Source: an uncultured Poribacteria bacterium
Lineage (GTDB): Bacteria > Poribacteria > WGA-4E > PCPOR2b
DNA: 64,000 nucleotides
Reading direction: 5' to 3'
NCBI GenBank assembly: GCA_958296125.1
Contig: OY282444.1
Span: 1,353,176-1,417,175, forward strand
The translations under genes and the position numbers were made by a program. Below the pieces are notes generated by a model. The model was not told where the DNA came from. It did no database searches and saw only the letters and a program-made list of their open reading frames with translations. How positions within the stretch are numbered: position 1 is the first letter of the stretch; each line of letters opens with the position of its first letter. Positions 19,343-26,686 of this stretch are shown here, piece after piece.

Positions 19343-21724
19343 CTACTTCAGAATTGCCATCTTCTGCATGGAAACATAATCGCCAGCTTTCAGCACATAG
19401 AAGTAGACACCGCTAGCAGCCCGCTCTCCCGATTGGGTATGTCCATCCCAGTAGACTGCCTTTTCCTTAGTGATGTACTGTCCACGCTTTTTCATACCGA
19501 TGGGCAATGTCCTTACCAACTGTCCTGATATATTGTAGATTTCAACCGATACGGGGGAATCCTCCCCTAATTCGTAAGGGATCCAAACGTCCGGATTGAA
19601 CGGATTCGGGTAACTTTGCAGCAGCCGAGTCTGCATTGGCGCAGCGGCGGTATTCGGTGGATTAAAGACAGGGGTAATACCGTTTGGATCGATGCTTGGG
19701 GTGCCCATAATGCCAACTGCATCAACAGGCACAACGGCATAAAAGTAACGGGTGTCCTGCGGCTCAAAACGGGCATTGTCTACATCGATATCTTGAAATA
19801 TCGTCGTATCCTCAAAGTGCGTATCCGTTGCATTGACCCATCCGACGATGTTAATGTCAGCGTTGGGAATGCCGTTACCATTTCGATCGGCGGCATTCAG
19901 CACTTCCACAGCAGTCTGGAATGGCTGCGGGTCATCGGTTTCAATCAACGATGTATATCGCTTTCGGACAATGACCACTTCGCGAATATCCGTCAAATCT
20001 TCGAGCTGCCATTGCACACGCACGCTCGTGTCCCTCTCTTGCGAGACGATAGGTGTCGAAAGAGCACCGGCGGGCGGACGGCCCGCCATATAGCTCACAG
20101 CACCGCCAAAATAGTCACCGCCGGGGATAATGACCTGCTCGACATCTGGACGTACATTAATCAGGATGAGTGTAATCTTCTTAATATCACCCCCAAAGTC
20201 GTTAAATGTGATCTGTCCCTCCTGAGAACGCTGGTAAGTGAATGCCTCTCGAATCTCGTGCGTTCCATCCCGATTTTCAACGATAAACTTTGCGCCCCAA
20301 CCGCGCAAGCCATAGATATCGAGTCGATCCAATTCCCCCTGAATTTCAGCATGGTCTGTAAGGCTGAGGGAACTCATGTCAGTTGGGGCAATGTCGGCAC
20401 CATCAACCTTAATAGCAAATTCGTTCATCACAACGCCGGGGGTGGGTTCAAAAACAATATAGCGTGCCGAGAAGGGTTCCGGCATCGCCTCTGAATCCCA
20501 ATCAACGCGGACGGGATAGGTGTCGTGCACATCGTGCGGGTGAATGAGAACCGGTGGGAATCGGTGTCCATTGAAATAGTGCTTCCCATCATCACGGTCG
20601 TGGGTAAAATAGTTCCACTCGGTAAACGTCTTAAAGGCCTCAACCAGCGTTGTGCCATGGTCGGCAAAGACCTGCAAAAAGTTACCAAATTCGCGGTAAG
20701 AGCCACGCGTTGCCTCTCCATAAAACTGCCGAACAATATCAACATCGAATCGCTCCGCCATGTAAAACACCCAGATTACAGCCGCATATTCGTGCAAACC
20801 GACGCGGCTGTCGAGAGCGATGTCAGGCTGATCTAAAAAAATCCCAAGCTGTCTAGGGTAATAGTCATAAGCATCGGTCTCGCCAAGTTCATCAGGGTCG
20901 GGGATATCGTCGCGATCGTCAATCCGTCCGCCATCATACACTTTTGACTCAATCCATGTTGCTGAAGCCTCCATAAACCAGCCCGGCATACGTGCATTGT
21001 AGGCGAACTGAATTCCGTGCAGGAATTCATGTGCAGTGGTCGTTTCGATGAATCGGATGCCCTCTAACTTCCCGAAATAGTCGTATAGGCGGGAATTTAT
21101 TGCGAAATAGGGACCGAAGGTCACGACGGTGGGTAGTATCCGCCCGTTGTACCAATCTGTCGTTGTAAAACCGAGTGCCGGAAACTGAAACAGGTACACA
21201 TCATATTTATGGTTGCCGCCGTTTTCCGCAGCCCAAAAATCGTCAAAAGGCCTCTTAAACCCCATCAGATCAACCTCGACACGGAAAGATCGCTCGTGTG
21301 CCTCAGCACAAATATCAACGTAATCCGGCACACCGTTCATCGGATTCACATCTTCGAGCGGTGGCGCATGCGGACCGACAGTGGTATAGTGGAATCGGAA
21401 GTGAAGGGTATCAAACTTCTTTGGTAGATTAACGGAACTGTAGGGGCTGCCGGGCTGCCCCGGTCGCAGGAAAATCCCCTGAAACTCGCGCTGATAGACC
21501 GCTGGCAGGCGATTCCAGTTTTGGGCGAGGGTGTTGAAGGTGTCTGTAAAACACTCCTCAATTTCGCTGGGGACGTAACTCAACTTGGGATTGATATATT
21601 TTCGGGCAGTCCGAATGGTGCTATGCAACCCTGGATCGGGTGGGCGTGCATCGACAGATACGGACGTGGCAGCGAGAATTCCGAGGATCAATGACAGGAC
21701 TAGGAAAAATCTCAAATGGTTCAC
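19343..21724 (-). CDS. Secreted metallopeptidase-like protein with C-terminal NPFNP sorting-type domain
   Basis: A 793-residue exported protein. It has a signal peptide (about 1-26, ending SVDARPP) and a catalytic region with TTAHEFLHGIQFAYNAR, an HExxH zinc motif, followed by PGWFMEASATWIES with a candidate third-ligand Glu as in gluzincins. Next come beta-sandwich domains with a fibronectin-like stretch (VRVQWQLEDLTDIREVVIVR) and a C-terminal FlgD-like tail LLQSYPNPFNPDVWIPYEL to GVYFYVLKAGDY. The plan resembles the MXAN_6640 group of putative metalloproteases; the activity is inferred. The C-terminal tail is the kind that Poribacteria and relatives use on surface or secreted proteins and is shared with the product of 22236-24581. 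Confidence 0.8.
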   Translation of the reverse strand: MNHLRFFLVLSLILGILAATSVSVDARPPDPGLHSTIRTARKYINPKLSYVPSEIEECFTDTFNTLAQNWNRLPAVYQREFQGIFLRPGQPGSPYSSVNLPKKFDTLHFRFHYTTVGPHAPPLEDVNPMNGVPDYVDICAEAHERSFRVEVDLMGFKRPFDDFWAAENGGNHKYDVYLFQFPALGFTTTDWYNGRILPTVVTFGPYFAINSRLYDYFGKLEGIRFIETTTAHEFLHGIQFAYNARMPGWFMEASATWIESKVYDGGRIDDRDDIPDPDELGETDAYDYYPRQLGIFLDQPDIALDSRVGLHEYAAVIWVFYMAERFDVDIVRQFYGEATRGSYREFGNFLQVFADHGTTLVEAFKTFTEWNYFTHDRDDGKHYFNGHRFPPVLIHPHDVHDTYPVRVDWDSEAMPEPFSARYIVFEPTPGVVMNEFAIKVDGADIAPTDMSSLSLTDHAEIQGELDRLDIYGLRGWGAKFIVENRDGTHEIREAFTYQRSQEGQITFNDFGGDIKKITLILINVRPDVEQVIIPGGDYFGGAVSYMAGRPPAGALSTPIVSQERDTSVRVQWQLEDLTDIREVVIVRKRYTSLIETDDPQPFQTAVEVLNAADRNGNGIPNADINIVGWVNATDTHFEDTTIFQDIDVDNARFEPQDTRYFYAVVPVDAVGIMGTPSIDPNGITPVFNPPNTAAAPMQTRLLQSYPNPFNPDVWIPYELGEDSPVSVEIYNISGQLVRTLPIGMKKRGQYITKEKAVYWDGHTQSGERAASGVYFYVLKAGDYVSMQKMAILK

Positions 21725-22235: not shown

Positions 22236-24581
22236 ATGATGCAAACTCGATGTTTAATCAAAGTTGCTGTTGCAGTGCTTGTTATGGGAACGTTTACGGG
22301 ACTGAAACCCGCGTGGGGAGCGAACAACTGGATACAGCTCGATGATGGACTAGCAATGGGAGGGGCTTACGCACTTGCAGCCCACGAACCTAGACTTTAC
22401 GCCGGAGGCGATAACGGTGTCTTCGTTTCTGAGGACGGTGGAAACAGCTGGTTGCCAACTTCGTTCAATAATCCAGTTAGCACACTGACGGTTGATAGGG
22501 ACACTGTCTATGCGGGCACATGGGGCTCAGGTGTTTTCCGATCCGATGATGCTGGGATGACTTGGAAACCGATTCGGAACGGATTGCGCTTTCATGAACA
22601 CAAAGACGGAACACGCTATTACAGCACCGTGCGTCATATCCTTATCACGGACAACAATATTATCAATGTGATGTACCATAATGGCACCTATACATCAACG
22701 GACCGTGGGGAGACATGGCACGACATTTCAGCGGAGTGGTTGAAGGGTAATAGTATCTACTCTATGACGGAGTTTGGCGGCTATCTTTGGAGTGCAGTGT
22801 CGATCGGTATGCTTCGTTCACCTGACAGTGGCAAGACATGGGAAGGGATCCACCCTTTTGATTATGGTCGTGTAGACGACTGGGCAGTACTCAACGGACG
22901 GTTGTACGTTGTCGGTCAAGCTGGTGTTGGATTCTGGAACGAGACCGCGCGGACTTGGGAATACCCAATGGTTGGGCTTCCAACTGATCGCTTTGAAAAC
23001 CCAAATGAGTTGTCGTATGTTTTCACCTACGCTGTTCACGGTGGTCAATTGTTCGCCGGATTGGACTCACACGGCGTTTATGTCTTTGATTTGCAGTCAG
23101 AGACTTGGTCGTCCGTCGGTCTGGAAGGACACTCTATTTCTTCTCTCCTATCGCACGGGTCGGTACTCTATGCGAGCGCAAGTGACGGTATCTACTACTT
23201 AGCCAGAGTCACAACAATCTCCCCTCAAGTGGGACACGTCGAAGGCGGCGAACCCATCGCGATTTTTGGAAGAGATTTTCCATCTGGAACAACTGTTGCG
23301 ATTGACGGACGGTCATTGACGGACCTAGAGGTGACCCATACGTTGATAACGGGGCTCACACCACCGGGAGTCGTTGGTGAAGCAGATATTGAGGTTCGCT
23401 TTCCAGATAGTAGCAACTTGCTCGCTGAAAGGCAGAAATTTCTTTACACGAACACCCCATTGATAACGCTGACAATGGCCCCAACAAACGGACCTCTGAT
23501 GGGAGGAGAGACAGGCATTGTAACTGGCAGCGCTTTCGCCCCTGATGCAGTGGTAAAAATTGGGGCTAACCCGGCAACAGATATCGTCGTCACGCCAACG
23601 TTGATTCATTTCACAATTCCACCTAGCGCGGTCGGAACGGTAGATGTCACCATAACGAACCCGGATGGAAGGGAGTGGATTTTAGAGAAAGGGTACACCT
23701 ACAATCCATTACCTCCGCCGGTCATTCACGCGATTTACCCCATCGAAGGGTCTAATGCCGGAGGCACGGAGCTAACCATCAAAGGGAATAACTTCCGCGA
23801 TGGAGCCGTAGTCATCGTCGGTGAGATACAAGTCAAACAGTTGGACAACCTCTCGCTAACCAAAATTCGCTTAAAGACACCGTCATCGCCCCTTGGTAAC
23901 AAAGACGTTCGTGTGGTCAATCCCGATGGTCAACAGGTCGTGCAAAAACGAGCATTTACCTATAAGGTGCCTCTAACCATTACCAGCATTACCCCCAATG
24001 TGGGACCTATGAAAGGTGGAACGCTGGTGACTATCGTTGGAACAGGGTTTCGCGTCAGCCCCTGGAGCACTGAGGTCACCATTGGCGGCAGCCCTGTCTC
24101 AGCTGTCACCGACACGGCATTGACAGAATTGAGGGTCAGGACACCGGAGGCATTGACCCCTGGAGCGAAGGATGTTGTCGTAAGGAACACCAACGGGGAT
24201 GAAGCTACACTTAAAGGGGGGTTCACCTATGATGATTTATTGGTAGTTGAAACGCAAGGGAAGTTGTTGACCACCCTGGGTTACGTGAAACAGACCCGTT
24301 TACTGCAAAATTATCCCAACCCGTTCAACCCCGAAACTTGGATACCTTACCAACTGGCAACGGAAACCGATGTTACCGTCGTCATCTACGACAGCGGAGG
24401 CCAACGGGTGCACACACTTAAATTGGGAACTCAGTCACCGGGTTTATACCTCACCCAAGAGAAAGCAGCATATTGGGATGGGCGGAGTGATACCGGGGAA
24501 TGGGTTTCCAGCGGCACGTATTTCTACCGCTTGCAAGCGGGGGGTTACTCGGCAGCGAAGAAAATGATTATACTGAAGTAG
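22236..24581 (+). CDS. Secreted propeller/IPT-repeat protein with C-terminal NPFNP tail
   Basis: A 781-residue exported protein. The signal peptide (about 1-29, ending LKPAWG) is followed by a seven-blade-like propeller of sialidase/YCF48 type, with Asp-box motifs such as SEDGGNSW, SDDAGMTW, STDRGETW and SPDSGKTW. Four IPT/TIG immunoglobulin-like repeats follow, each with a P-x-x-G-x-x-x-GG signature (GHVEGGEPIAIFGRDF, GPLMGG, GSNAGGTELTIKG, GPMKGGTLVTIVG). It ends in LLQNYPNPFNPETWIPYQLA, an FlgD-like region and a final KKMIILK. This is an adhesin or surface-binding architecture, with no enzyme residues identified. GGAGG is 4 bases before the ATG at 22236 and 7 before the ATG at 22239, so the latter may be the true start. 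Confidence 0.82.
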   Translation: MMQTRCLIKVAVAVLVMGTFTGLKPAWGANNWIQLDDGLAMGGAYALAAHEPRLYAGGDNGVFVSEDGGNSWLPTSFNNPVSTLTVDRDTVYAGTWGSGVFRSDDAGMTWKPIRNGLRFHEHKDGTRYYSTVRHILITDNNIINVMYHNGTYTSTDRGETWHDISAEWLKGNSIYSMTEFGGYLWSAVSIGMLRSPDSGKTWEGIHPFDYGRVDDWAVLNGRLYVVGQAGVGFWNETARTWEYPMVGLPTDRFENPNELSYVFTYAVHGGQLFAGLDSHGVYVFDLQSETWSSVGLEGHSISSLLSHGSVLYASASDGIYYLARVTTISPQVGHVEGGEPIAIFGRDFPSGTTVAIDGRSLTDLEVTHTLITGLTPPGVVGEADIEVRFPDSSNLLAERQKFLYTNTPLITLTMAPTNGPLMGGETGIVTGSAFAPDAVVKIGANPATDIVVTPTLIHFTIPPSAVGTVDVTITNPDGREWILEKGYTYNPLPPPVIHAIYPIEGSNAGGTELTIKGNNFRDGAVVIVGEIQVKQLDNLSLTKIRLKTPSSPLGNKDVRVVNPDGQQVVQKRAFTYKVPLTITSITPNVGPMKGGTLVTIVGTGFRVSPWSTEVTIGGSPVSAVTDTALTELRVRTPEALTPGAKDVVVRNTNGDEATLKGGFTYDDLLVVETQGKLLTTLGYVKQTRLLQNYPNPFNPETWIPYQLATETDVTVVIYDSGGQRVHTLKLGTQSPGLYLTQEKAAYWDGRSDTGEWVSSGTYFYRLQAGGYSAAKKMIILK

Positions 24582-24744: not shown

Positions 24745-25482
24745 CTAGGGGGTGAACGTTTCAAGAAGGGGAAGGGGTTGGTTATCCTGTAAAAGAGCGA
24801 GCGCAGCTGAGATAATCTTATGGTGTAGGGCGGGGTTGTTCGGCTCGCCAAGGGGATAGCCGAAGCAATATGGCACAGCCAAGGCTCGGGGCGGCTTGAC
24901 CTGCTCAGTAATACTCCGAACCAAAGTAATCGAAACGGTTGAGATACCAACCGCCTCGATTGCACGCTGGATCAGCCCAACGGACTGATTACACAGCGGT
25001 CAGACGGGGGTCAGAAAGGCGACATCAACGCCATCCGATTTGAGGTGCCCCCCAACCTCCGGGGCGGTGCGTTTAATTAAACGTCCCGGAGCAGTTTGTG
25101 ACCCCATAAAGCTGAAATGTCGATCGTTGAGCTGCCCGATTTTGCCTGTCTGTTCTAGCTCTCGAAAGCGGTCGATCGGAAACACCAGATTCCGATCTGT
25201 AAAGCTGCCGGTCTGATCGTATGCTGTGCTTCTGTGTGCAACTGTCAATGCCTGCACATTAACTGTGTTGGGGATTTCACGATAGGAGTAATCGCCGCCT
25301 TTGAAGTGATCATCGAACGGCTCCTGAGACGCTGTATACAAACCAGCGGTCGTGACTAAGGCAACTCGACACTCCGCTAATGGTCGCTGTAATGGGGTGT
25401 GCGGCGTTGTGTCGTAACGCCGATAGCGATAGAGTTTCATGAAGGTGCGAAGTTTGAAATCGAGTTCGTCAAAAGATGCCAT
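24745..25482 (-). CDS. Selenoprotein of the PrdB/GrdB (D-proline/glycine reductase selenoprotein) type, in-frame UGA read as Sec
   Basis: Reading the UGA at 25000-25002 as selenocysteine gives a 245-residue protein with Sec161. Before it: an N-terminal region with ALVTTAGLYTASQEPFD, GGDYSYREIPNTVN, FPIDRFRELEQTGKIG and HLKSDGVDVAFLTPV. After it: UPLCNQSVGLIQRAIEAVGI, then RALAVPYCFGYPLGEPNNPA and a normal TAG at 24745-24747. This follows the D-proline reductase PrdB and glycine reductase GrdB family, including the UxxC redox motif, the IQRAIEAAGI helix and the GEPNNP end. The reductase partner (PrdA-type) is not nearby, so the substrate is unknown. The start at 25482 has AAGGAG eight bases upstream. 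Ordinary calling would truncate the protein at its active site. Confidence 0.88.
24965..24998 (-). promoter_or_regulatory. Candidate bacterial SECIS hairpin for the PrdB-like gene
   Basis: Directly after the UGA the minus-strand RNA can fold as lower stem CGCUG/CAGCG, asymmetric bulge UGUA against C, upper stem AUCAG/CUGAU plus U-G, C-G, C-G, and an apical GUU loop. The loop lies about 18 bases past the UGA, in the range of known bacterial SECIS elements, and is read as codons at the same time. Drawn by eye. Confidence 0.6.
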
Positions 25483-25551
25483 GATTGGTTCTCCTTCTGC
25501 ATCGCCCAAGCCATACGCAGGTTAATACTTTCAGCCAGATCCCTTATGTCA

Positions 25552-25587
25552 ATTATAGCATTAATCGAGTTGATGAGAAGTCAACTC
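25552..25587 (-). promoter_or_regulatory. Promoter and operator-like palindrome of the selenoprotein gene
   Basis: On the minus strand there is an extended -10, TGCTATAAT (TATAAT at 25552-25557). Overlapping the -35 area is a perfect 7-base inverted repeat GAGTTGA-n7-TCAACTC (25567-25587), which could bind a regulator and would lie between the selenoprotein gene and the divergent Ldh-family gene. Confidence 0.5.
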
Positions 25588-25633: not shown

Positions 25634-26686
25634 ATGGTAGATTCAAAGCGAATCGAGCATCCTGAACTGATTCAATTTTTCAAACAGACCCTGATGGCTG
25701 TTGGTGCGCCATCACATGTAGCAGAAGTAGAGGCAGAGATTGGGGCAGAGGTCGATCTGTGTGGCGTGCATTCACACGGGGTTCGACTGTTGCCGGTGAT
25801 GGTTGAGAACATCCAAACCGGATTGACGAACCCGGATCCGGAAGTGAAAGTTCTTGGAGAGTATCCGGCTTCGGTACTCGCGGAGACAGACCGGGGCATT
25901 GGGCGGTATGTCTCTGCCATCGGGATGGATATGGCAATAGAACGGGCAGCAGCCTATGGTATCGGTGCGGCTACTATCCGCGGGGTGGCACATTGGGGGC
26001 GTGGATACAGCTATGCAGCACGGGCGGCGCGCGCCGGCATGATTGGCTTGGCGTTCACAAACGCGATCATCAACTTTCCAGCGTGGGGGACTTCTGCGCT
26101 GTCTCTGGGAAATAACCCAATGGCTATCGGTGTACCCGTGGAGGATGGCGGCGAGCCGGTCGTGTTGGACATCGCGATGACGCAGACTGCCATCGGTCGA
26201 GTCCGTGAAGCCGTCGAAGCGGGACAGCGTGTGCCTCTTGGATGGGGTTTAGACACCGAGGGAAAGCCGACAACAGATCCAGAAGCGATTGTCGAGTCCC
26301 AACGTTTTCTGCCGATGGGTGAACACAAGGGTTCCGGTCTAGCGTTCATGGTTGAACTCCTGACTGCGGGGTTGGCAGGTGGCTTGCTCTGCTATGAACT
26401 GGGAACGGAGGGACGACCGACGGACACATCGGGAGGCTCCTCAAAGCTTTTCATCGCTATCCGCCCTCACGAGAATTGGCTAAGTGAAAGAACTGAATCG
26501 CTTAAAGCCCACTTAAAATCCGCACCGGCAGCGGAAGAGCAGGGCGAGGCGCAGTGGCCCGGCGAGGGCAGTTATCGCCGCCGAACTGAGTATCTCAGGG
26601 ATGGCATCCCAATTTCTCTCAAGTTGGCAGCGGACTTAGATGGGCTTGCACAAGAATTGTCCGTGCCGTTGAGCTGGAAGGTTTGA
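25634..26686 (+). CDS. Ldh-family NAD(P)-dependent dehydrogenase (malate/L-lactate/ureidoglycolate type)
   Basis: A 350-residue oxidoreductase of the type-2 malate/L-lactate dehydrogenase family, unrelated in fold to the classical enzymes. Visible family motifs are GVHSHGVRLLP with the conserved catalytic-site His, GAATIRGVAHWGRGYSYA, FTNAIINFPAWGTSALSLGN, PMAIGVP, PVVLDIAMTQTAIGRV, PLGWGLDTEGKPTTDP and LPMGEHKGSGLAFMVELL. It would oxidise a 2-hydroxy acid with NAD(P)+, substrate unknown. It is divergent from the PrdB-like selenoprotein gene across a 151-base shared promoter region, which might mean joint regulation. Confidence 0.92.
   Translation: MVDSKRIEHPELIQFFKQTLMAVGAPSHVAEVEAEIGAEVDLCGVHSHGVRLLPVMVENIQTGLTNPDPEVKVLGEYPASVLAETDRGIGRYVSAIGMDMAIERAAAYGIGAATIRGVAHWGRGYSYAARAARAGMIGLAFTNAIINFPAWGTSALSLGNNPMAIGVPVEDGGEPVVLDIAMTQTAIGRVREAVEAGQRVPLGWGLDTEGKPTTDPEAIVESQRFLPMGEHKGSGLAFMVELLTAGLAGGLLCYELGTEGRPTDTSGGSSKLFIAIRPHENWLSERTESLKAHLKSAPAAEEQGEAQWPGEGSYRRRTEYLRDGIPISLKLAADLDGLAQELSVPLSWKV

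Follow-up and report, generated by a model that had tools for sequence, protein, structure and literature searches.

D-proline and glycine reductases require a pyruvoyl subunit (PrdA/GrdE) in addition to their selenocysteine (Sec) subunit (PMC10298544). Selenoproteins of the PrdB type, which carry a UxxC motif, are also known as an abundant marine-metagenome family described in 2005 and 2008; the Sargasso Sea data contained 42 of them and the GOS data 235 (PMC1088965, PMC2398784). PrdB-type proteins are among the most abundant marine selenoproteins. The window considered here (the whole analysed stretch of 64,000 nucleotides) comes from a member of Candidatus Poribacteria, a sponge-symbiont-type bacterium, and contains a gene which, judging from its sequence, almost certainly encodes a selenoprotein of 245 residues that falls in the PrdB branch of PF07355 and whose active-site motif is Sec161-Pro-Leu-Cys164 (UPLC). 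The features of the locus are collected in Table 1.

Table 1. Features of the selenoprotein locus, in window coordinates
Feature	Position	Strand	Evidence
PrdB-like selenoprotein gene, complete, 245 aa, predicted Sec161 (U) and Cys164	24745..25482	-	TIGR04483 1.6e-45, PF07355 6.8e-13
In-frame UGA, codon 161, predicted to be read as selenocysteine	25000..25002	-	TGA column common to 39 distinct homologues
84 codons C-terminal of the UGA, then TAG stop	24745..24999	-	dN/dS, own PrdB match
SECIS-like hairpin	24965..24998	-	-18.1 kcal/mol, z -2.47; synonymous-codon shuffle z -3.2
Shine-Dalgarno AAGGAG	25491..25496	-	8 nt upstream of ATG, read from sequence
Promoter-like site, extended -10 TGCTATAAT	25552..25579	-	-10 kept in genus relatives
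Divergent Ldh_2-family dehydrogenase	25634..26686	+	PF02615 3.6e-93, genus synteny

The gene runs on the minus strand from an ATG at 25482 through 245 codons to a TAG ending at 24745. The sequence-only reading had proposed a single frame interrupted by the UGA at 25002-25000, and this has been borne out by profile searches in which both halves match PrdB: the joined protein reaches 155.4 bits against TIGR04483, the part before the UGA alone 100 bits, and the 84 residues after it alone 39 bits (4.7e-10). Such independent matches indicate far more than a chance frame. The extended -10 upstream of the gene is kept in the genus relatives apart from one substitution in one of the four, and a promoter-like site of this kind, taken alone, occurs no more often than expected by chance. 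Between the two divergent genes, a perfect 8-bp hairpin with a T-run after it (25567-25587) was considered as an operator-like element and rejected, as it is not kept in the genus relatives.

Gene calling with table 11 yields only a truncated product of 160-169 residues, as would be expected if the UGA were a true stop or a sequencing error and the downstream part were dead. Homologues tell against this. They were found in 67 of 84 Poribacteria genomes, and wherever the match reaches the Sec site TGA is present (the match in genome G017 is a fragment ending short of it). A base-by-base check of 39 distinct Poribacteria homologues, a set that leaves out locus L073, revealed TGA followed by xxC at the same position in every one, down to about 42% identity, almost always in the context UPxCNQSVG. 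Furthermore, against four genus relatives dN/dS is 0.075-0.091 after the UGA and 0.112-0.121 before it; this strong purifying selection indicates that the C-terminal part, on whose conservation the sequence-only reading depended, is translated and under selection. On these comparative sequence data, the pseudogene or error reading can be regarded as already refuted by conservation. Annotation with the ordinary code breaks the gene off at the active site, and the protein can then easily be mistaken for a truncated fragment.

The assignment of the UGA to the UxxC Sec site of the PrdB/GrdB family has likewise held up. When the protein is aligned with PrdB and with Sec- and Cys-containing homologues, the Sec columns coincide: this column is occupied by Sec in PrdB of Peptoclostridium, Terrisporobacter and Ligilactobacillus, and by Cys in PrdB of Enterococcus gilvus and Paraclostridium and in alphaproteobacterial homologues. 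In a 19-sequence tree, the Poribacteria proteins stand apart from PrdB with modest support (79/82 and 94/94). Membership of the superfamily is indicated by a PF07355 (GRDB) match of 49.1 bits, compared with a Pfam cut-off of 22; the match is confined to profile positions 202-345, the C-terminal half of the model, and is the single occurrence of PF07355 in this genome. Sequence searches of the PDB gave no significant match, a scan of viral contigs found no relative, and AlphaFold, applied to the protein and four relatives, returned a mean pLDDT of 31, too low for a usable model.

Directly 3' of the UGA, where a bacterial selenoprotein mRNA is expected to form a hairpin, such a structure is predicted from the 45 nt starting at the UGA. 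It had been described as a two-part stem with perfect 5-bp lower and upper helices beginning two bases after the UGA. The perfect 5-bp lower helix stands (24998-24994 paired with 24969-24965) but starts one base after the UGA, and the upper helix comprises 8 bp rather than 5 (24989-24982 paired with 24978-24971), closed by a GUU triloop in this genome and by GUN across homologues. Across 20 aligned sequences, 96% of the upper-helix cells are paired, with changes on both sides at three pairs; the lower helix is paired in 68% of cells across homologues, is perfect in this genome only and is weak in the relatives. None of 500 shuffles reached the covariation score of the whole structure, and pairing, at 85% in the original register, fell to at most 36% once the partners were slid. 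The synonymous-codon shuffle gives a strong signal in this genome (z -3.2) but only a modest one when applied to the homologues, where the mean z was -1.3, with 6 of 39 falling below p 0.05. An Rfam scan at gathering scores returned tRNA only and no SECIS match. Taken together, the evidence for a SECIS element appears good, its strength being partly limited because the protein sequence encoded there is conserved. A separate 15-pair hairpin lies about 40 nt past the UGA (24928-24961, minus strand) and has a terminator-like pattern inside the coding frame.

The proposal also depended on the presence of Sec machinery in the genome, and all of its components were found: tRNA-Sec (76.6 bits) directly adjoins selB (370 bits) and selA (601 bits), and the CGUAAK site of selD (370 bits) contains a TGA in frame. 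The locus thus combines a UGA conserved at a Sec/Cys site with a genome that encodes SelA, SelB, SelD and tRNA-Sec. The selD gene at L054:1501-2421 is itself a Sec-containing gene (CGUAAK). Enrichment of SelA/SelB has been reported for sponge symbionts (PMC5649159).

It could be supposed that the protein is a true D-proline reductase PrdB whose PrdA is unlinked or highly diverged, since TIGR04483 is its best family match and both its length and its Sec column are those of PrdB. This is nevertheless highly improbable. The score of 155.4 bits lies well below the curated equivalog cut-off of 300 bits, and the motif is UPxCNQ and not UGTCHR. Moreover, profile searches detected no PrdA (TIGR04480) in this genome or in eight further Poribacteria genomes, and no PF09338 in this genome or in fourteen further ones. 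Three plasmids encoding PrdA or PF09338 subunits, used as positive controls, did give matches, strong ones where PrdA is known. The absence of the pyruvoyl subunit (PrdA/GrdE) from the genome makes D-proline or glycine reduction unlikely, in agreement with the earlier suggestion that the role is not classical Stickland fermentation. Marine PrdB-type selenoproteins have been read as D-proline reductase, and the lack of PrdA indicates that for at least this lineage such a reading is mistaken. Two side observations concern plasmids. At L078:5001-5660, on plasmid pDA100 of Photobacterium sp. DA100, a GrdB-like gene that contains a TGA in frame (UGTCTRCG) is unannotated in the plasmid table, and a Cys-type PrdB without a listed annotation is found at L080:5001-5666 on a Paraclostridium bifermentans plasmid, with no PrdA listed in the 10-kb stretch.

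The gene had been described as standing alone beside a divergent Ldh-family dehydrogenase, with no reductase partner. Within this genus the description is correct: the Ldh_2 gene adjoins the selenoprotein gene divergently across the genus genomes examined, and neither PrdA nor PF09338 is found in this genome or the other Poribacteria searched. It does not hold generally. In most sister lineages sampled, the selenoprotein gene shares its operon with a Gfo/Idh/MocA dehydrogenase gene or with two of them; at most loci of sister family f4, it lies 6-14 bp downstream of a Gfo/Idh/MocA gene or overlaps it, and a second such gene usually follows downstream on the same strand. Outside this genus, the Ldh_2 neighbour is not conserved. 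Its orthologues in genomes G007, G008, G017 and G023 are on contigs other than those with the selenoprotein match, and none was found in family f4 at E 1e-60. Ldh_2 was therefore rejected as a universal functional partner, the linkage being restricted to one genus.

Other genes were noted around these loci. At three Poribacteria loci (L064:5911-9528, L065:6364-9567 and L066:10191-13490), a protein of 1067-1205 aa belonging to one family is encoded directly upstream of the selenoprotein gene. The L065 copy carries a type ISP restriction-modification specificity domain together with an N6-methylase, and its gene is preceded by the upstream Gfo/Idh/MocA gene and followed by that of the selenoprotein. 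In the window, the flanking region (22236-24581 and 19343-21724) encodes large proteins of secreted type that end in FlgD_ig / Por_Secre_tail sorting domains.

The protein is most likely a stand-alone selenol/thiol reductase. SelB and tRNA-Sec, guided by the hairpin just past the UGA, would insert Sec, whose selenolate may attack a small substrate at an activated carbon; Cys164 would then resolve the intermediate as a selenenylsulfide, with thioredoxin or a cellular dithiol as the reductant. In D-proline and glycine reductase, it is the pyruvoyl subunit that activates the amino group, and the selenoprotein described here probably works without such a partner. Its substrate would probably be handled, before or after this step, by NAD(P)-dependent sugar/polyol-type dehydrogenases, i.e., Gfo/Idh/MocA in the sister lineages and perhaps Ldh_2 here. 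The whole chain, including partner-free substrate reduction by Sec161/Cys164, seems somewhat probable. The pathway link to Gfo/Idh/MocA may not hold in this genome, where neither gene has an orthologue: for the first, the best match reaches 34% identity over most of the length, and for the second, a search at E 1e-60 gave none.

A general thiol-redox selenoprotein, active for example in disulfide or peroxide reduction and with no role on carbon substrates, is a possible if rather doubtful alternative. It would fit the UxxC motif, which resembles that of thioredoxin-like selenoproteins, the lack of a conserved metabolic partner in this genus, and the interpretation of marine-metagenome UxxC families as redox proteins in one report (PMC2398784). 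The Gfo/Idh/MocA operon of the sister lineages, on the other hand, suggests a specific metabolic step, and PF07355 relatives of known function act on carbon substrates (PMC10298544). Returning to the substrate reductase, one might tentatively go further and suppose that the Poribacteria PrdB fold is a pyruvoyl-independent selenoenzyme which, in an operon with two Gfo/Idh/MocA dehydrogenases, performs a reductive selenium-dependent step in the breakdown of sugars/polyols or osmolytes that has no known counterpart; this is at present rather unlikely. The conserved sister-lineage operon is nonetheless a concrete and testable lead to the real substrate.

Among known systems, D-proline reductase PrdB (TIGR04483) is alike in length, best profile match, Sec column and the conserved C-terminal G(A/E)PNN region. 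The Poribacteria protein differs in its sub-equivalog score and in having UPxCNQ where clostridial PrdB has UGTCHR, and its gene lies outside any prd operon, without a PrdA or PF09338 subunit. GrdB, GrdF and GrdH of glycine, sarcosine and betaine reductase share the UxxC motif and PF07355 homology over the C-terminal half, whereas the approximately 200-residue N-terminal half of full-length GrdB, the second Cys of its UxxCxxC motif and its GrdE-type (PF09338) partner are all missing here. Alphaproteobacterial proteins annotated as "glycine/sarcosine/betaine reductase selenoprotein B family" (WP_035710215.1, WP_207415257.1) are homologous over most of the length, have CPxCHQ at the Sec column and are likewise without prd neighbours; they differ in having Cys instead of Sec, a longer C-terminus, only 32-34% identity and a different neighbourhood. 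No account of PrdB in Poribacteria was found in the literature. The marine PrdB-type selenoproteins (pfam07355), compared by their description in excerpts of the two reports (PMC1088965, PMC2398784), which mention neither an operon context nor a lack of PrdA, share the Pfam family, the UxxC motif, the likeness to PrdB and the marine setting, and the Poribacteria selenoprotein is an added member of this known marine family and not the founder of a new one.
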